A stretch of 64,000 bases of DNA from Bacteroidia bacterium (lineage in GTDB: Bacteria > Bacteroidota > Bacteroidia > M30B66), in contig JAIBAI010000009.1 of the NCBI GenBank assembly GCA_019695235.1, forward strand, positions 1 through 64,000, given 5' to 3'. The position numbers and the translations under genes were made by a program. Below, piece by piece: positions 31,325 to 40,083 of this stretch (within the stretch, counting starts at the first letter, position 1; each line of letters starts with the position of its first letter). A model generated the notes under the pieces. That model saw nothing but the letters and a program-made list of their open reading frames with translations, was not told where the DNA came from and did not search any database.

Positions 31325-32902
31325 TTATTTTGAGCTCACAAACCGTGCAGCAGCTTCTGCACATTTCTGCCCGTCCATGGCTGCTGAAACGATGCCACCT
31401 GCATAACCGGCTCCTTCGGCGCAGGGAAACAAACCACTTATTTGCGGATGTTGCAGTGTTTCGGCATCTCTTTGAATACGTACCGGTGATGAGGTGCGCG
31501 ACTCGACGGCATGTACTACTGCCTCATTGGTGAAGTACCCACGCATTTTTTTACCAAACAACCTGAAGGCATTTTGAAGTCTTTGATGAACAAATGCTGG
31601 TAACACTTCTTCTAAGCCCACACTTGTAATACCGGGCAGGTATGAAGAAGGTGGCAGGGTACCTGAAATGCGCCCTTCAGAAAAATCAACCATGCGCTGT
31701 GCCGGTGCGGTTTGGGTACCTCCACCTGCCTGGCAGGCTGCCTGTTCAACCGACTGCTGAAAATACATGCCCGCAAGAGGGCCGTGTTGCCTGAAACATG
31801 CCGGGATATCTGTTTCTCTAATTTCTACCACAATACCTGAGTTGGCAAAGGGATTGTCGCGTTTGGAGGGCGACCAGCCATTGGTGACCACCTCCCCATT
31901 CTCGGTAGCACAAGGGGCTACAATGCCTCCCGGGCACATGCAAAACGAATAGACCCCACGGCCATCAACCTGTTCTACCAAGGCGTACGAGGAGGGAGGA
32001 AGGAAGTTCCCACGGGTATCACAATGGTATTGAATGCGGTCAATAAGGGTTTGTGGATGCTCAATTCGAACTCCCAGCGCAAATGGTTTGAATTGCACCC
32101 CGATGCCTTCATTGGCCAGCATGCTATATATATCACGGGCAGAATGGCCTGTAGCTAAAATCAGCGCCTTTGCAGGTACATTAATAGCATTGTTAACTAC
32201 CACACCATTGAGTGCCCCCATGCTGTGGTTTATCTGGGTTATCCGGCTTGAAAAGTGAATTTCGCCACCATGAGCAAGGATGGTTTCGCGCATTGATACG
32301 ATAATGCCCGGCAATTTGTTGGTGCCAATATGCGGATGGGTATCAATCAGGATATCTTCTACAGCACCATGGGCAAAGAAAGTACCCAACACTGAACGGA
32401 TTTCACCCCGTTTATTACTGCGGGTATATAATTTACCATCTGAATAAGTGCCGGCTCCACCCTCACCAAAGCAATAATTTGAATCAGGGTTCACCTGATG
32501 TTCACGATTTATAGCAGCTAAATCACGCCGGCGTTCACGTACATTCTTCCCCCGTTCAATAATAATTGGTTTTATACCCAGTTCCAACAGGCGAAGGGCG
32601 GCAAAAAGACCGGCCGGCCCGGCCCCCGCAATAATCACTTCAGGGGCACTTGCAACATTGTGGTATAGAGGTTCTGAATAGTCTGATGCTGGAAGGGCCT
32701 CCTGATAGTAAACTTCTAATTTGACTATCACCTTTACTTTCCTGCTTCTGCTGTCAATTGAGCGTTTCAGCAGGCGAATATGGAAAGCTGAACCTTGCTG
32801 TATGCCCAACAAATTGGCAACGTGCAGCGCCAGGGCTTCGTTCGAAAAACCGGTTTCGGGTGATACGGTGAGGGTCAACTGCTGAGGCATCCCTTTACTC
32901 AA
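31325..32902 (-). CDS. FAD-dependent dehydrogenase (COG2509-like)
   Basis: A 525-residue flavoprotein of the kind often annotated NAD(FAD)-utilizing dehydrogenase. The FAD-binding Rossmann motif VIIAGAGPAGLFAALRLLELG lies near 89-109. FGEGGAGTYSDGKLYTR near 144-160 and ILATGHSARDIY near 250 are typical of the family, and the C-terminal GAGYAGGIVSAAMDG near 496 is the second flavin-contact motif. The N-terminal ~85 residues form a separate small alpha/beta domain. The substrate is unknown. It is last in a five-gene operon and overlaps porT by 8 bases. Confidence 0.88.
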   Translation of the reverse strand: MSKGMPQQLTLTVSPETGFSNEALALHVANLLGIQQGSAFHIRLLKRSIDSRSRKVKVIVKLEVYYQEALPASDYSEPLYHNVASAPEVIIAGAGPAGLFAALRLLELGIKPIIIERGKNVRERRRDLAAINREHQVNPDSNYCFGEGGAGTYSDGKLYTRSNKRGEIRSVLGTFFAHGAVEDILIDTHPHIGTNKLPGIIVSMRETILAHGGEIHFSSRITQINHSMGALNGVVVNNAINVPAKALILATGHSARDIYSMLANEGIGVQFKPFALGVRIEHPQTLIDRIQYHCDTRGNFLPPSSYALVEQVDGRGVYSFCMCPGGIVAPCATENGEVVTNGWSPSKRDNPFANSGIVVEIRETDIPACFRQHGPLAGMYFQQSVEQAACQAGGGTQTAPAQRMVDFSEGRISGTLPPSSYLPGITSVGLEEVLPAFVHQRLQNAFRLFGKKMRGYFTNEAVVHAVESRTSSPVRIQRDAETLQHPQISGLFPCAEGAGYAGGIVSAAMDGQKCAEAAARFVSSK

Positions 32903-33632
32903 ATGTAAATGAAATGTAAAATGCCTTTGAGCGCAGGCGATCTAATGGATTAATATAGACATTGTTCTCACGTACAATGAGATTATTCAATCCGTAGGCC
33001 ATTTTGAATTCAGGAGTAAATTTGAAATACTGTGTATAGAAATCAAAGCCTACACCAATTTCCCAATTCAGGTCGTTTCTCTTGAGTTTAAGTATCTTCT
33101 CTCCTTTGTCGTCAACTTTATCTTGCGAAGCCAAGTCAATTACCGGCTTTATACCTCCAATTACATAAGCCCTGAAATTGTTGGCGCGTGCAGACTTGAA
33201 CTTTAGAAGCAATGGAAATTCAAGAAAGGTTGATTCAACACGCTTGTCTTTTAAAAACGAGCTGTCAGTGCCGGCCACTCTTATGGTATAGGTAAGTTTT
33301 CGCTCCCCAAAGGCCAGGGTTGGCAAGAAACGCAAATCTAAATTATCTGTAAGGTGCAGGTTGCCGACAATGCCAAGGTTGAAACCATTGCCACTGCCGG
33401 GTGTAATAGCTAATACCGTGTCGTTCTGCCGTAAATCATCAACCGGCCGGTACATGAAATTCAGGCTGTTGATGCCTAAAATAAAGCCAAAGTGAACCGT
33501 TTGTTTGTCGTAATTCGGTAGGTTCAGCACCTTGCGTCTTTGAGCAATTCCGTTCTGCTGAATGCACAGAAGCAAACCAACCAATATCATGGCTGGTTTG
33601 AACCTGCTAATAAGAGAAAGAATGCTTTTCAA
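32895..33632 (-). CDS. porT: PorT-like protein, type IX secretion component
   Basis: A 245-residue outer-membrane beta-barrel protein with an N-terminal signal (hydrophobic MILVGLLLCIQQNGIAQ near 15-31). Alternating strands fit an 8-stranded barrel and the protein ends in Phe-Glu (YISFTFE). Length and the position directly after ubiE match PorT/SprT, a protein required for T9SS export and gliding in Bacteroidota. It fits with the two T9SS-sorted proteins in this window (21559 and 58179). The general PorT-family barrel is the alternative call. Confidence 0.82.
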   Translation of the reverse strand: MKSILSLISRFKPAMILVGLLLCIQQNGIAQRRKVLNLPNYDKQTVHFGFILGINSLNFMYRPVDDLRQNDTVLAITPGSGNGFNLGIVGNLHLTDNLDLRFLPTLAFGERKLTYTIRVAGTDSSFLKDKRVESTFLEFPLLLKFKSARANNFRAYVIGGIKPVIDLASQDKVDDKGEKILKLKRNDLNWEIGVGFDFYTQYFKFTPEFKMAYGLNNLIVRENNVYINPLDRLRSKAFYISFTFE

Positions 33633-33645
33633 TTCCTTTTGTTAA

Positions 33646-34374
33646 TTACTTGTTTCCGGTATAAAGGGTTACGATACCAAATGTAAGTCTGCTGCTCTTT
33701 GTTTCTTTGAAGCCTGCATCCTGCATCTGCTTTTCAAAAGATGCCCCATCAGGGAAAGCCTGAACTGAATCATATAAATACTGATAAGCCGAAACATTTT
33801 TAGAAAATAATTTACCAATAAACGGACAAAAATACCGGAAATATATATCGTACAACTGCTTGACAGGGAATACATGTGGGCGTGAAAACTCAAGAATCAC
33901 AACCTTACCGCCCTCGCTGAGCACCCGGTTCATTTCCTGAAGCCCCGCTTGTAAATTTTCGAAGTTCCTTACCCCAAATGCGACAGTAACAGCGTCGAAT
34001 TGCCGGTCAGTAAATGGCAGATTTTCTGAGTCTGCTTTTTTTAACTCAATTAGGTGCGACAGACCTTTTTGTTGAACCTTTTTCCTGCCTATCGCAAGCA
34101 TCCCTTCAGAAAGGTCTATTCCTGTGATTTTCTGAGGGCCTAATTTTCGCAAGGCAATGGCCACATCAGCAGTTCCGGTAGCAATATCAAGGATTTGTTG
34201 TGGATTGCACCGTTTTAACGCAGCTACCATTTTTTTTCTCCACCATATATCAATGCCTACTGATAAAAACCTGTTGAGAAAATCGTAACGATGTGCTACA
34301 TCGTCAAACATTTGTTCGACTTGTTCTTTTTTGCCGGAATCAGAACCGGCATAAGGGGTGACCACTTTTGACAT
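33646..34374 (-). CDS. ubiE: Demethylmenaquinone methyltransferase
   Basis: SAM-dependent C-methylation in the last step of menaquinone synthesis (menG function). The 242-residue protein shows YDFLNRFLSVGIDIWWRKKM near 30-49, SAM motif ILDIATGTADVAIAL near 61-75, and RVLSEGGKVVILEFSRP near 150-166, the UbiE signatures. Bacteroidota use menaquinone, so menG is the expected role. Its start overlaps the stop of the heptose-kinase gene by one base (TAATG). Confidence 0.95.
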   Translation of the reverse strand: MSKVVTPYAGSDSGKKEQVEQMFDDVAHRYDFLNRFLSVGIDIWWRKKMVAALKRCNPQQILDIATGTADVAIALRKLGPQKITGIDLSEGMLAIGRKKVQQKGLSHLIELKKADSENLPFTDRQFDAVTVAFGVRNFENLQAGLQEMNRVLSEGGKVVILEFSRPHVFPVKQLYDIYFRYFCPFIGKLFSKNVSAYQYLYDSVQAFPDGASFEKQMQDAGFKETKSSRLTFGIVTLYTGNK

Positions 34375-35366
34375 TACCCAATAAAACGTTTTGCTTCATC
34401 AAAAAGTTGTGTTGCATTGACCGGAACAACTCCCGGTTTCTCACAAACCTGTCCGCCGGCTAAATTCGAAAGAAACGCCAAAGTACTCAGGTTACTTTTT
34501 GCGGCAAGACAAAGGCTCGCAATGCTGATGACCGTGTCGCCAGCGCCACTTACATCGGCAATCGTTCTTACATGTGCTGGCAAAAAGTAAGATTCATGTT
34601 CGCCCGAGGCAAACACCCCATGCTCCGAAAGGGTAATAAGTGAAATCTGATGCCCCAGTTGTTTGCGTAACAGGCCGTCAGCTTGTAGGATAGAAGGTTT
34701 CTCTGCCGCATTCACCTCTGTTTTTAAACCCTCACGAATTTCTTTCAGATTTGGTTTAAACAAAGTAACACCCTTGTAAGCTGAGAAATTTCTTTTCTTT
34801 GGGTCAACCGCTACCGGAATTTGTTTCTTAGAAGCCAGCTCAACAACTGTCTGAATTAATAAAGGATTGATAAGTCCTTTATCATAATCTTCAAACACCA
34901 CAGCATCAAAATTATTCGCGTCAAACAGTTGTTCAATATGCATTCTGAAAGCTTCTGAATGGGCCTGATTGAGTGGAGTGTCATCTTCTTCATCTACCCT
35001 GAGCAGCTGGCTTTTGTTACCCATGATGCGTATTTTTAGGGTGCTTTTCCTATCAATACGTAAAATCCCTTGTTGATGAAGTGCCAGCTTGCTCATACTT
35101 TGCAAAATGGCATCACCGGCATGGTCATTTCCGATAACCGAAGCAAGGGTAACTTTAGCCCCCATCGCCACGATATTTTGTGCAACGTTGGCAGCACCTC
35201 CCATGCGGTCTTCATGACTGCTTACATTCACAACAGGTACAGGTGCTTCAGGCGAAATGCGGTCAACTTTACCATGTATGTACCGATCGAGCATAACGTC
35301 GCCTATAACCAATACATGAAGGCTTTTAAACTTCTCAAATAATATGCTTAATTCCTGCTGGTTCAT
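34374..35366 (-). CDS. D-glycero-beta-D-manno-heptose-7-phosphate kinase-like (HldE/RfaE domain I)
   Basis: A PfkB-family sugar kinase of 330 residues, matching the kinase half of HldE. The N-terminal LVIGDVMLDRYIHGKVDRIS near 16-35, GGAANVAQNIVAMG near 56-69 and the C-terminal DVSGAGDTVISIASL near 268-282, with its anion-hole Gly and catalytic Asp, fit the family. The adenylyltransferase half is absent, so the pathway needs a separate gene elsewhere. The product feeds ADP-heptose for lipopolysaccharide core. It overlaps neighbours by 4 bases and 1 base. Confidence 0.85.
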   Translation of the reverse strand: MNQQELSILFEKFKSLHVLVIGDVMLDRYIHGKVDRISPEAPVPVVNVSSHEDRMGGAANVAQNIVAMGAKVTLASVIGNDHAGDAILQSMSKLALHQQGILRIDRKSTLKIRIMGNKSQLLRVDEEDDTPLNQAHSEAFRMHIEQLFDANNFDAVVFEDYDKGLINPLLIQTVVELASKKQIPVAVDPKKRNFSAYKGVTLFKPNLKEIREGLKTEVNAAEKPSILQADGLLRKQLGHQISLITLSEHGVFASGEHESYFLPAHVRTIADVSGAGDTVISIASLCLAAKSNLSTLAFLSNLAGGQVCEKPGVVPVNATQLFDEAKRFIG

Positions 35367-36559
35367 GCTGTAAGGCTTAACAGGCCTTGCTTCAAGCGTT
35401 TTATTGCTTCAATTATCTGGTCATCTGAAGTTGCATAAGAAAGCCTGATTGAATGAGGGCAGCCAAAGGCCAGCCCGCTAACAGTAGCAACATGGAAATT
35501 GTAAAGCAGATAATGACATAATTCCATGGTGTCGTTGAGTACCTTTCCATTACCTGTTTTACCAAGGTAGGTGCTCACATCCGGGAAAAAATAAAAGGCG
35601 CCTTGCGGAAGATTTACGCGAACATCCGGTATCTCACAAAGCAAACGGTACATCAGATCACGCCGGGTTTTGAATGCCCTGGTCATATCAGCCAAACACG
35701 AAGGGTCGGCATCTAAAGCAGAAATGGCTGCACGTTGTGTAATGGTGCTCGTGCCGGAAGTAATCTGCCCCTGAAATTTATCACAGGCCTCGGCAAGCCA
35801 AGCTGGAGCACCGATATACCCCAAACGCCATCCGGTCATTGCAAAACCTTTTGACAAACCATTCACGGTAACTGTTCGTTCATACATCCCCTCAAGCGAG
35901 GCAATACTAACATGACTGCCTTCAAATTGAATCAGCTCATAAATTTCATCCGAGATAATGATAACATCCGGAAAACGCCGAAGCAATGCTGCCAGCTCTT
36001 CAAGTTCTTGCTTGCTCATTACTGAACCGGTGGGATTGCATGGAGAGCTGAAAATCAACAATTTGGTTTTAGAATTTAAAAAAGGAGCTATTTGCTCCGC
36101 CTTTACTTTAAAGTCCTGATGGATACCAGCATACACCGGCACAGGGATTCCTCCGGCTAATTTTATCATTTCGGCATAGCTAACCCAATAAGGGGCAGGC
36201 AAAATTACCTCCTCGCCAGGGTTCACCAAACTCATGATTACATTGGCAATGCTTTGTTTCGCTCCGGTTGAAACTACAATTTGGTTGGGTTTGTACCTTA
36301 AGCCGTTATCACGTAAAAATTTGCGGCTGATGGCTTCACGTAACTCAAGGTAGCCTGAAACCGGTGGGTAGTGCGAAAAATTCTCGTCAATAGCTTTTTT
36401 TGCTGCCGCTTTAATAAAATCAGGAGTGTTAAAATCGGGCTCCCCCAGACTCAGGCTGACAATGTCAATTCCCTGGGCTTTCAATTCACGGCTGGCTCTT
36501 GCCATAGCAAGCGTTTCTGACTCGCTGAGTGCTTTTAAACGGTCTGATAGCTGATTCAT
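35363..36559 (-). CDS. Class I/II PLP aminotransferase, aspartate aminotransferase type
   Basis: A 398-residue fold-type I aminotransferase from the ATG at 36559; an upstream ATG at 36595 would add 12 residues absent from the family. SLSLGEPDFNTPDFIK near 36-51, SPCNPTGSVMSKQELEE near 175-191, SDEIYE near 205 and the Schiff-base lysine in VNGLSKGFAMTGWRLGY near 235-251 are clear. It fits the group Ib aspartate aminotransferases, which can also act on prephenate or aromatic substrates. It is divergent from the DAHP synthase pair, suggesting a remnant of an aromatic amino acid cluster. It starts the five-gene minus-strand operon. Confidence 0.92.
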   Translation of the reverse strand: MNQLSDRLKALSESETLAMARASRELKAQGIDIVSLSLGEPDFNTPDFIKAAAKKAIDENFSHYPPVSGYLELREAISRKFLRDNGLRYKPNQIVVSTGAKQSIANVIMSLVNPGEEVILPAPYWVSYAEMIKLAGGIPVPVYAGIHQDFKVKAEQIAPFLNSKTKLLIFSSPCNPTGSVMSKQELEELAALLRRFPDVIIISDEIYELIQFEGSHVSIASLEGMYERTVTVNGLSKGFAMTGWRLGYIGAPAWLAEACDKFQGQITSGTSTITQRAAISALDADPSCLADMTRAFKTRRDLMYRLLCEIPDVRVNLPQGAFYFFPDVSTYLGKTGNGKVLNDTMELCHYLLYNFHVATVSGLAFGCPHSIRLSYATSDDQIIEAIKRLKQGLLSLTA

Positions 36560-36567
36560 GTTGGCTG

Positions 36568-36575
36568 CAAACCTA
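36568..36575 (-). promoter_or_regulatory. -7 element of the aminotransferase-heptose kinase-ubiE-porT operon
   Basis: On the minus strand this is TAGGTTTG, a perfect TAnnTTTG, 8 bases before the ATG at 36559; no -33 TTG. Confidence 0.4.
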
Positions 36576-36658
36576 AGGTAATTTTTACAATACACACGAA
36601 TAGACTATAATTGCAGGCTATTTTATCAGCAACCATCAACAGGCGTTTCACCCGACCC

Positions 36659-37582
36659 ATGCGCATTTCAGCTTCAGTAAGTACAATTCCATACAGAGAA
36701 TTACCTGGGATAATCCGTGAAATGGAACTTGCCGGAGTGGATGCATGGCATCTTGACAGTATTGAAAACCGGGAAATTTTTGACCTTGCCGAATTCCTTT
36801 CAAAACTGTCTGACCGGCCACGTGACCTGCATTTAATTACGTCAGACCCAGTTAAGTACTGGGATGAAATAAGAAGAACCGGCATTGAAGCAAGCACAAT
36901 TCAATTAGAACGCTTGCATTCACCATTGTACATACCCAGAGATCTGGTGGGTAAAGTAGGTATAGCGCTGCTGGCAAATACCCCGGCGGAAGCCTTTCTG
37001 CCTTACGTTGCTGAGGCAGCCTGGTTATTAATTATGACCACAACACCAGGCTACTCTGGAGGCACCTTTCAGACTTCTCATTTCGAGAAAATTGTTAGAT
37101 TTCGGCTATCCTATCCAAACACCCCGGTTTTTGTTGATGGGGGAGTGGTGCCGGAAATTGCTGCGGTTTTAAAGTTAATCGGTGTGGTGCAGGTAGTGTC
37201 GGGCTCATTTTTACTCAGCGGTACCGGTGTTGAAGAACGTGCAATTAGCCTCAAAGAAGCAAAGATTGAAGAGGGCCGTGTGAAAGAAATTATGGTACGC
37301 AGAAGCCACTGGCCGGCCGACTTTAAGAAGTTTCTTGAAGAAACCCCTGCTGATAACAGTGCAGAATTTCAATGGTTTATCAATAAAAGAGGTGAACTTT
37401 CGCGGATAAATAAAGTTTTATCAGGTAACCTGCCGCTGATGATTCACGAAGAATTACCCTTAACCCTGCTGGTGAAGGCGATGGAGCGCTTCGATGGAGA
37501 CACCTCTGCTGTGGCGGTGGTAAACGATTTGTTTCAATTTACCGGTATGCTCGTACTGGCTTCTCATCTTTCAAAAAAATGA
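36659..37582 (+). CDS. Ribulose-phosphate-3-epimerase-like TIM barrel with extra C-terminal domain
   Basis: From the ATG at 36659 the protein has 307 residues; an in-frame TTG at 36611 is less likely. Residues 1-~210 align by eye with ribulose-phosphate 3-epimerase. The metal/acid-base residues are all present: His31 and Asp33 (AWHLDS), His58 (DLHLI) and Asp160 (FVDGG), with PGYSGGTF near 130-137 replacing PGFGGQ. The usual VMDxxYVPN after the first ligands is lost. Residues ~215-307 form an added domain ending like one CBS module (VAVVNDLFQFTGMLVLASHL). It overlaps the DAHP synthase start by 4 bases. The substrate is unknown; a sugar-phosphate epimerase or regulator is possible. Confidence 0.7.
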   Translation: MRISASVSTIPYRELPGIIREMELAGVDAWHLDSIENREIFDLAEFLSKLSDRPRDLHLITSDPVKYWDEIRRTGIEASTIQLERLHSPLYIPRDLVGKVGIALLANTPAEAFLPYVAEAAWLLIMTTTPGYSGGTFQTSHFEKIVRFRLSYPNTPVFVDGGVVPEIAAVLKLIGVVQVVSGSFLLSGTGVEERAISLKEAKIEEGRVKEIMVRRSHWPADFKKFLEETPADNSAEFQWFINKRGELSRINKVLSGNLPLMIHEELPLTLLVKAMERFDGDTSAVAVVNDLFQFTGMLVLASHLSKK

Positions 37583-38577
37583 TTGTACATCTTAAAGATA
37601 ACATTTCAGAACCCCAGTCGCTTGAATTGGCCCATAGCCACAAAGCGGTTTATTTTCGTTCAAAAAACACCCCTGTTTTGGTGCTGCCTTCAGCGATAAA
37701 GGTACTCCCGGTGGCATTAGAGCCATTAACCAAAGCGCACTGGCCTTGTGATTCAGATATTCAGTTGGCCTCTAAGGCATACAAGCCTGAAACCCGGGAG
37801 GTACGTTGGGGGAAGACCGTGGTAGGGGGTAATTCAGGAAATACAGTAGTTATTACAGGGCCTTGCTCGGTAGAAAGCCTTGAACAGATTGAGCAATCGG
37901 CTTCATTGTTGAACGAGCTGGGCATCAATACCTTGCGTGCCGGGGCATTTAAACCACGCACTTCTCCATATACCTTCCAGGGTATGGGCATCGAAGGGCT
38001 TCAGCTCCTTGCCCGGATGCGTGAAAAACACGGGTTTTCTATAATTACTGAGGTACGTGATGCAACGCACATTGAGCAGGTGATTGAATATGCTGATATT
38101 ATTCAGATAGGGGCTAAGGCAATGTATGACCATGGTATCCTCCGTCGCTGCGGAAAAGCCGGAAAGCCTGTGTTGCTCAAACGTGGTTTTGGCTCCACCC
38201 TGCAAGAGTTTGTTCAATGTGCCGAATTCATCCTTTCGGGTGGCAATGAACAGGTGATGCTCTGTGAGCGTGGTATCCGGACATTCGAGACAAAAACACG
38301 CTTTACGCTTGATTTGTGCGGTGTAGCCTACCTGAAAGAATACACCAATCTGCCTGTTATTCTTGACCCAAGCCACGCCATGGGCTATGCATACGGGGTA
38401 GCTGATCTTGCCAGAGCCTGTGTGGCAATGGGGGTTGACGGTATCCTGATTGAAACCCACCCTCAACCACGGGTTGCACTCTCAGATGCCTCGCAACAGC
38501 TTAACCATGATGAATTCAGAACACTGTACCGGAGTTTACAGCCTGTAGCTGCTGCCGTTAACAGAAAACTGGTGTAG
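37579..38577 (+). CDS. aroF: 3-deoxy-7-phosphoheptulonate (DAHP) synthase, type I-beta
   Basis: First step of the shikimate pathway, from phosphoenolpyruvate and erythrose-4-phosphate. The 332-residue protein has an N-terminal ~85-residue segment resembling the ferredoxin-like domain of I-beta enzymes. The (beta/alpha)8 barrel then has VITGPCSVES near 90-99, RAGAFKPRTSPYTFQG near 120-135, KRGFG near 207 and ILDPSHAMGYA near 262. The KDO8P-synthase-like layout marks type I-beta. It is translationally coupled to the epimerase-like gene upstream. The nearby aminotransferase could complete phenylalanine/tyrosine synthesis. Confidence 0.93.
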   Translation: MIVHLKDNISEPQSLELAHSHKAVYFRSKNTPVLVLPSAIKVLPVALEPLTKAHWPCDSDIQLASKAYKPETREVRWGKTVVGGNSGNTVVITGPCSVESLEQIEQSASLLNELGINTLRAGAFKPRTSPYTFQGMGIEGLQLLARMREKHGFSIITEVRDATHIEQVIEYADIIQIGAKAMYDHGILRRCGKAGKPVLLKRGFGSTLQEFVQCAEFILSGGNEQVMLCERGIRTFETKTRFTLDLCGVAYLKEYTNLPVILDPSHAMGYAYGVADLARACVAMGVDGILIETHPQPRVALSDASQQLNHDEFRTLYRSLQPVAAAVNRKLV

Positions 38578-38594: not shown

Positions 38595-39269
38595 ATGACT
38601 ACACAGTTCAAACAAAATATTCAGCACTTGGGCAATGGAGATTTTTTGAATGATTTAGTTTGTCCGGAAATTCCAATGGAGCGAAAAATGCTCTTATGGC
38701 ATGGTACCAGCTTGCCCGATGCCTTAGAGTTGCTCTACATTAGCAATCACTATGCGATCGCTATTGACCGCCTGCTCAAATTTGACCTGACTGTTTCAAA
38801 GCGATTTTCTGATACGATAAAGCTGGTTGTTTTCGATGTAGATGGAGTTATGACAGATGGGGGAATGTATTACACCGAGAGTGGTGACGAGTTAAAGAAA
38901 TTTAATGCCAAAGATGGTTTAGCCATCCGGCAACTGGTAGCCAAAGGGGTAATTACAGGTATCATCAGCCATGGAATTAACAAAAATCTCATTGAACGCA
39001 GGGCGGCATTGCTTGGCATATCAAGGGTTTATTGCGGAAATCAGTCAAAAGCCGAAGTGTTAACCGGATGGTGCAATGAAATGGGTATCGCTACCCGGGA
39101 AGCAGCATTTATTGGCGACGATATCAATGATTTACCTGTAATACGCCTGGTAGGATTTTCAGCCTGCCCAGCAGATGCTGTGCCGGAAGTGCAAAAGGAA
39201 GTTGATCTTGTGTTGCGCAAAAGAGGTGGAGAAGGCTGTGTTCGTGAATGGCTCGACATGCACATTTAG
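38595..39269 (+). CDS. KdsC-like HAD phosphatase with N-terminal extension
   Basis: Residues ~75-224 match 3-deoxy-D-manno-octulosonate-8-phosphate phosphatase. HAD motif I is VVFDVDGVMTDGG with Asp81 and Asp83, motif II is IISHG (KdsC normally IITGR), and motif IV is FIGDDINDLP near 173-182. The enzyme would free KDO for lipopolysaccharide. Typical KdsC is ~170-190 residues; here ~74 residues precede the HAD domain (DALELLYISNHYAIAIDRLL near 42-61) and match nothing I know. A later start at an internal Met (28 or 32) is possible. It follows DAHP synthase by 17 bases. Confidence 0.8.
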   Translation: MTTQFKQNIQHLGNGDFLNDLVCPEIPMERKMLLWHGTSLPDALELLYISNHYAIAIDRLLKFDLTVSKRFSDTIKLVVFDVDGVMTDGGMYYTESGDELKKFNAKDGLAIRQLVAKGVITGIISHGINKNLIERRAALLGISRVYCGNQSKAEVLTGWCNEMGIATREAAFIGDDINDLPVIRLVGFSACPADAVPEVQKEVDLVLRKRGGEGCVREWLDMHI

Positions 39270-39318
39270 TGCTTCATGAATAAAATGAATGGTAAGTGAA
39301 AAGCTAATGGCGGTTTCT

Positions 39319-39326
39319 TAAATTTG
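39319..39326 (+). promoter_or_regulatory. -7 element before the GT2 gene
   Basis: TAAATTTG lies 16 bases before the GTG at 39343; no TTG at -33. Confidence 0.35.
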
Positions 39327-39342
39327 CCCTCCTGCTATTGAA

Positions 39343-40083
39343 GTGAACTCTGAGAGCCTTATAATAATTCCCACCTATAATGAACGCGAAAACATCGAAA
39401 AGATGGTTCGCAAAGTAATGTCATTACACCGTGCCTATGATTTGCTCATCATTGATGATGGCTCTCCCGACGGAACCGGTGGCATCGTCAAAACACTTCA
39501 AAAGGAGTTTGACAAGAGGCTCCATTTGGTTGAACGCAGTGGCAAACTGGGTCTTGGAACCGCTTATATTCTTGGCTTTAGGTATGCACTTGAACGCGGC
39601 TATCAATTCATTTTTGAGATGGATTGTGACTTTTCACATAACCCTGACGACCTGGAGCGACTTGAAGATGCCTGCCGCAATGAGGGCGCTGATTTGGCTA
39701 TAGGCTCAAGATATATCACCGGCGTGAATGTGGTAAACTGGCCTATGAGCCGTGTACTGATGTCATATTATGCTTCAGCCTATGTGCGTAGAATAACCGG
39801 TATGAAAATACGTGATACCACAGCCGGTTTTAAGTGTTACAAACGACAGGTTTTAGAAACCCTTGAACTTGATAAAATTAAGTTTATGGGGTATGCATTT
39901 CAGATAGAAATGAAGTTTACCGCCTGGATGTGCGGTTTTAGAATAAAGGAGGTTCCTATCATTTTCTACGACAGAACTGAAGGGAAATCAAAAATGTCAG
40001 GAAAAATTTTCCGTGAAGCAGTTTTTGGCGTGATTGAAATGAAAGTAAAGAGCTGGTTCAGAAAATACCCGAGAGTTAAGTAA
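39343..40083 (+). CDS. Polyprenol-phosphate mannose synthase-like glycosyltransferase (GT2)
   Basis: A 246-residue GT2 enzyme in the dolichyl-phosphate mannosyltransferase group. SLIIIPTYNERENIEKMV near 4-21, IDDGSPDGTGG near 37-47 and MDCDFSHNPDDL near 95-106 (the DxD) are the classical motifs. No membrane segment is apparent, so the soluble DPM1-type form is likely. The GTG at 39343 is the only start that keeps the N-terminal strand. It would charge undecaprenyl phosphate with a hexose for periplasmic glycosylation. It is followed after 19 bases by an acyltransferase. Confidence 0.92.
   Translation: MNSESLIIIPTYNERENIEKMVRKVMSLHRAYDLLIIDDGSPDGTGGIVKTLQKEFDKRLHLVERSGKLGLGTAYILGFRYALERGYQFIFEMDCDFSHNPDDLERLEDACRNEGADLAIGSRYITGVNVVNWPMSRVLMSYYASAYVRRITGMKIRDTTAGFKCYKRQVLETLELDKIKFMGYAFQIEMKFTAWMCGFRIKEVPIIFYDRTEGKSKMSGKIFREAVFGVIEMKVKSWFRKYPRVK

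Follow-up and report, generated by a model that had tools for sequence, protein, structure and literature searches.

KDO (3-deoxy-D-manno-octulosonate) anchors outer-membrane lipopolysaccharide and is made by most Gram-negative bacteria; KdsD and KdsA, which carry out the standard first steps, are treated as drug targets. The CBS pair of KdsD is a sensor of CMP-KDO. In DAHP synthases the arginine of a GARNxQN motif binds the phosphate of PEP, and in KdsA the loop that comes after the motif lies near the sugar phosphate. The standard route leads from ribulose-5-phosphate to arabinose-5-phosphate (KdsD), and from there to KDO-8-phosphate (KdsA), KDO (KdsC) and CMP-KDO (KdsB) (PMC3149649), and KdsD itself combines a SIS domain with two CBS domains (PMC10448790).

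The locus described here lies in a genome of the class Bacteroidia (assembly GCA_019695235.1; 2.83 Mb, rated 100% complete), in the 64,000 nucleotides at the start of contig JAIBAI010000009.1 that we call the window. Three adjacent genes encode proteins resembling ribulose-5-phosphate 3-epimerase (RPE), DAHP synthase (DAHPS) and KdsC. We put at roughly four in five the probability that this trio is a KDO cassette that replaces KdsD and KdsA; the assignment of the cassette as a whole is strongly supported, and the chemistry of each enzyme is inferred.

Results

An RPE-like barrel with a worn CBS region

The first gene (36659..37582, forward strand) encodes a protein of 307 residues, of which approximately the first 200 make up the barrel. 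Pfam PF00834 matches residues 3-184 (1.2e-13), and among solved structures ribulose-5-phosphate 3-epimerases come closest. With RPE the protein shares its fold, the metal/acid-base set His31, Asp33, His58 and Asp160, on which the original prediction had drawn, and the phosphate-site glycines; the four residues do not vary across 44 relatives and the glycines are likewise invariant, which suggests that the protein is catalytic. It differs from RPE in its remodelled beta-2 loop, in a change from His to Gln at position 82 and in an added CBS region, and the VMDxxYVPN segment is indeed missing, as had been predicted, with HLDSIENREIF standing there instead. Against the RPE equivalog profile TIGR01163 it scores 51 bits, below the cut-off of 212.6. 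We reject the notion that it is an ordinary RPE, given that it falls far below the cut-offs and that an ordinary RPE (264.7 bits) is encoded on another contig, where it can serve as the pentose-phosphate epimerase of the cell. The catalytic domain of KdsD, KpsF and GutQ is of the SIS type, whereas a SIS domain was not found in this protein and its barrel is of the RPE type. It is nonetheless as a replacement for KdsD, that is, as a putative arabinose-5-phosphate isomerase, that we propose to read it.

The C-terminal part of the gene (37259..37579, forward strand) encodes about 105 residues that look like a worn CBS pair, the end being best preserved, and this bears out the extra CBS-like region of the original prediction. 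AlphaFold confidence is modest over the region, and an hhalign comparison between the C-termini of the window's order and the intact CBS pairs of relatives gave a probability of 87% (E 4e-6). Relatives outside the order are about 335 residues long and carry an intact CBS pair. In the case of Thiohalophilus, for which the AlphaFold model has a pLDDT of 91, the barrel matches RPE, and the CBS pair, when used in a fold search, found its best match in 4o9k, a CBS-pair structure from a putative D-arabinose-5-phosphate isomerase; the KdsD CBS pairs 3fna and 3k2v were also listed. Among the CBS proteins of the PDB, 4o9k also came top for the relatives' pair by sequence (8.6e-9) and by profile (5.3e-14), and its ligand is presumably CMP-KDO. 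The KpsF profile matches all 16 of the RPE-like members tested. The C-terminal region is a CBS pair of the KdsD type in relatives outside the order and only an eroded remnant of one in the window, so that feedback control may have been lost in the window's order.

A DAHPS-like partner and a KdsC-like phosphatase

The stop codon (TGA) of the RPE-like gene and the start codon (ATG) of the next overlap in the sequence ATGA (37579..37582, forward strand), an arrangement that would couple their translation. This overlap, already part of the original prediction, is conserved, since an identical one was found in 59 of 75 related loci. The partner (37579..38577, forward strand; 332 residues) resembles type I-beta DAHP synthases (AroA/AroG-like) along its whole length, including the N-terminal domain, the KPRTSPY motif and most of the PEP-site residues, and it scores above the DAHPS cut-offs of TIGR01361 (317.3 bits against 267.75) and NF006421 (358 against 335), while remaining below that of the KdsA profile TIGR01362 (119.2 against 314). 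It departs from these enzymes at the active-site motif, where GAKAMYD replaces GARNxQN. Throughout the family the substitution holds: GARNxQN was found in none of 100 trio loci, all of which have [AS]K[AS]MYD, KPRT[ST]PY being kept in the family, and in two Brumimicrobium genomes a separate I-beta enzyme carries GARNAQN. It departs from them also in genomic role, which follows KDO and not shikimate. From KdsA, with which it would share its reaction, the protein differs by having neither KANRSS nor PAFLCRQ. The gene occurs in genomes that have KdsB and lack KdsA, and we propose that it encodes a KDO-8-phosphate synthase in the place of KdsA.

The third gene (38595..39269, forward strand) encodes a KdsC-family HAD phosphatase, for which a KDO-8-phosphate phosphatase is the proposed identity. 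The HAD motifs are those of KdsC, and the score exceeds the TIGR01670 subfamily cut-off (137.6 bits against 106.95) and lies below that of the KdsC equivalog PRK09484 (132.4 against 208). It differs from KdsC in its second motif, which is SHG or SSG and not TGR or TAR, and in an N-terminal extension of about 70 residues (38595-38816). This extension may be a worn HTH domain, because its counterpart at one locus (L074) scores weakly as HTH_3 (8.9e-5). Five Chromatiales-type MAGs (L091, L092, L094, L096 and L119) have two KdsC-family phosphatases, the trio copy with the SSG motif and an ordinary copy, with TAR or TGR, in the lpt operon; since Chromatiales with the trio retain an ordinary kdsC, the trio phosphatase could act on a different substrate.

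Conservation of the trio and of its neighbours

The DAHPS-like gene directly follows the RPE-like gene in 20 of 20 diverse genomes of the class, with the KdsC-like gene next in 17 (as first scored), and comes after it in 75 of 80 loci in a wider scan of species genomes. Together with the recurrent overlap, this led us to reject a chance neighbourhood, and the special link to the DAHPS-like gene that had been predicted survives, the gene being neither the only RPE-like sequence of its organism nor placed in an unconserved setting. Against the trio as a unit stand four loci (L104, L108, L150 and L162) in which the RPE-like gene has no adjoining DAHPS-like gene; at two of them, L150 and L162, it is followed at once by the KdsC-like gene.

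The other neighbours of the window are not kept in the 20 diverse genomes. A heptose-7-P kinase-like gene (34374-35366) and an aminotransferase gene (35363-36595), both on the reverse strand, are close to the trio, as the original prediction observed of them and of the phosphatase. They belong to a block (31325-36595) of FAD-protein, outer-membrane protein, UbiE, heptose kinase-like and aminotransferase genes that stands beside the trio across the window's order and not beyond; being conserved in that order only, these genes and other neighbours were rejected as parts of the system. In other members of the order a uroporphyrinogen decarboxylase-like gene lies between the KdsC-like gene and a glycosyltransferase gene, and it is missing from the window at 39269-39343.

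Absence of the standard enzymes and mutual exclusion

The genome that contains the window encodes KdsB (252 bits, cut-off 155). A profile search did not find KdsA in it, nor did the KpsF profile find KdsD, matching at an E-value of 1e-3 only CBS regions, one of them part of IMP dehydrogenase, and no SIS region. The genome therefore encodes the enzyme for KDO activation but neither of the standard starting enzymes. An assembly gap is an unlikely explanation, given that the genome is rated complete and that the pattern is seen again across 81 genomes and in a further 14. PF00793 matches two of its proteins: besides the DAHPS-like partner there is a fusion of DAHPS with chorismate mutase, whose gene adjoins one resembling prephenate dehydratase.

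When 395 genomes of the class were searched, the RPE-like profile (called at E < 1e-40) detected family members in 81, with a clean gap before the ordinary RPEs, which appeared only at E > 1e-22. KdsA (TIGR01362, E up to 1e-55) was present in 288 and KdsD (TIGR00393, E up to 1e-25) in 226. The RPE-like family and KdsA never share a genome where about 59 overlaps would be expected (Fisher p about 1e-61, a value that ignores relatedness), and the RPE-like family and KdsD coincide in a single genome, G002, through a weak KdsD match (Fisher 1e-34, again ignoring relatedness). Most of the sampled genomes are MAGs and the sample is not phylogenetically independent. Four genera (g19, g24, g27 and g49) each contain both pathway states, however, and several separate switches are therefore needed. 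Of 62 RPE-like genomes examined for KdsB, 60 have it. Neither the RPE-like family nor KdsA is found in 26 genomes, several of which are incomplete, some having KdsD and some KdsB. There are also 70 KdsA genomes in which the KdsD profile finds nothing at E up to 1e-25; a further isomerase, not yet recognised as such, may supply arabinose-5-phosphate there.

The exchange can be seen in place within g19. At one locus kdsA-kdsD lies between the flanking genes C1(-C8) and C4-C5-C6 in two genomes (G133 and G102), and in a third (G066) the trio is found there. At a second locus kdsA-kdsD stands beside C11-C10-C9 in G163, while the trio is beside C11-C10-C9 in G192 and beside C11 in G023. The trio and kdsA-kdsD act as alternative cassettes.

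The trio in Gammaproteobacteria

The wider scan also recovered Chromatiales-type MAGs, a Halorhodospira MAG and an isolate, Thiohalophilus thiocyanatoxydans DSM 16326. In these Gammaproteobacteria kdsB adjoins the trio, in several arrangements. The order in Thiohalophilus is RPE-like, DAHPS-like, KdsC-like, GT9 heptosyltransferase and KdsB, with overlapping ends. In L119 it is yrbG, RPE-like, DAHPS-like, KdsC-like, kdsB, kdsC, lptC, lptA, lptB, and comparison with E. coli (yrbG, kdsD, kdsC, lptC, lptA, lptB) shows that the trio and kdsB occupy the kdsD slot of the yrbG-kdsD-kdsC-lptCAB operon. Neither KdsA nor KdsD scored above its cut-off in any of 14 further trio genomes, three Brumimicrobium isolates included, and for most non-Bacteroidota among them the best match to the KpsF profile is the RPE-like gene itself. 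The RPE-like family has in common with KdsD, KpsF and GutQ its genomic role and position, its exclusion pattern, the neighbours kdsC, kdsB and lptCAB and, in most members, the KdsD-type CBS pair.

Discussion

Our reading of the trio as a KDO cassette is based on co-occurrence, mutual exclusion, in-place swaps, operon context and domain origin, all of them computed. Within it, the RPE-like protein is probably an isomerase for arabinose-5-phosphate that lacks the SIS fold, having kept the CBS pair of KdsD and exchanged its catalytic domain for an epimerase barrel; together with a KDO-8-phosphate synthase derived from DAHPS it would form a second, transferable route to KDO in Bacteroidota and Gammaproteobacteria. 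In a search of open-access papers such a KDO route was not found described. The barrel, with the metal/acid-base set of RPE, would convert ribulose-5-phosphate into arabinose-5-phosphate by proton transfer between C1 and C2 and not at C3. Its translationally coupled partner, the DAHPS-like enzyme, would condense arabinose-5-phosphate with PEP to give KDO-8-phosphate, from which the KdsC-like phosphatase would free KDO for activation by an ordinary KdsB; in most members the CBS pair may allow feedback control by the end product, CMP-KDO. There are counterpoints to both assignments. RPE normally works at C3 through a 2,3-enediolate, and a 1,2-isomerisation needs the substrate to be shifted within the pocket, while the partner has kept the KPRTSPY of DAHP synthases and not the KANRSS of KdsA.

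On a rival reading, with which the same KPRTSPY motif and the changed loop next to it would agree, the trio might make a different 3-deoxy-ulosonic acid, for example from ribose-5-phosphate or another aldose phosphate supplied by the RPE-like enzyme, which would replace KDO in lipopolysaccharide and still be activated by KdsB. The SSG or SHG motif of the trio phosphatase, where KdsC has TGR or TAR, and its coexistence with an ordinary KdsC in Chromatiales would fit such a product. We think this improbable, however, for the KdsB tree does not follow pathway state, with the two labels mixed, and KdsB does not diverge with state: congeners of opposite state share 74-80% identity in three genera, and a fourth genus gives 61% (in a comparison that left out 9 of 30 KdsB sequences). 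Tree and identities favour KDO as the common product, and the in-place swaps with kdsA-kdsD favour one shared end product, as does the retention by most members of a KdsD-type CBS pair. That same CBS pair tells against a similarly improbable alternative, in which the DAHPS-like protein is the KDO-8-phosphate synthase and the RPE-like protein is regulatory or accessory, with another SIS enzyme providing arabinose-5-phosphate through a side activity. Such side activities exist, since an E. coli mutant that lacks arabinose-5-phosphate isomerase can be rescued by eukaryotic GFAT enzymes (PMC11301363). Yet the invariant metal/acid-base residues and phosphate-site glycines point to catalysis, the RPE-like gene sits in the kdsD slot of a Chromatiales operon, and the family is excluded from genomes that have KdsD.

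The original prediction saw in the RPE-like protein an epimerase of a related sugar phosphate or a ligand-sensing regulator at the entry to the shikimate pathway. Much of this holds, namely the related sugar phosphate, the link to a DAHPS-like partner and a C-terminal domain of ligand-sensing origin, and the partner does score above the DAHPS cut-offs. The connection to shikimate falls away and we give it very little credence: the genome has a separate DAHPS in the chorismate mutase fusion, besides its normal RPE, the presence of the family tracks the absence of KdsA and KdsD, and in other genomes it lies near kdsB, lptCAB and a heptosyltransferase gene. The partner would stand in for KdsA, and the pathway to which both proteins appear to belong is that of KDO and lipopolysaccharide.

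If the KDO cassette reading is true, KDO synthesis in roughly a fifth of the genomes sampled from the class, and in some Gammaproteobacteria, depends on two different enzymes, which profile-based annotation labels as RPE and DAHP synthase. It would mean also that a regulatory domain was retained while the catalytic domain beside it was swapped. What had looked like a gap in the pathway would become a question that experiment can decide, and the trio appears to be a second, independently evolved route to KDO in Gram-negative bacteria, one that replaces the textbook enzymes KdsD and KdsA.
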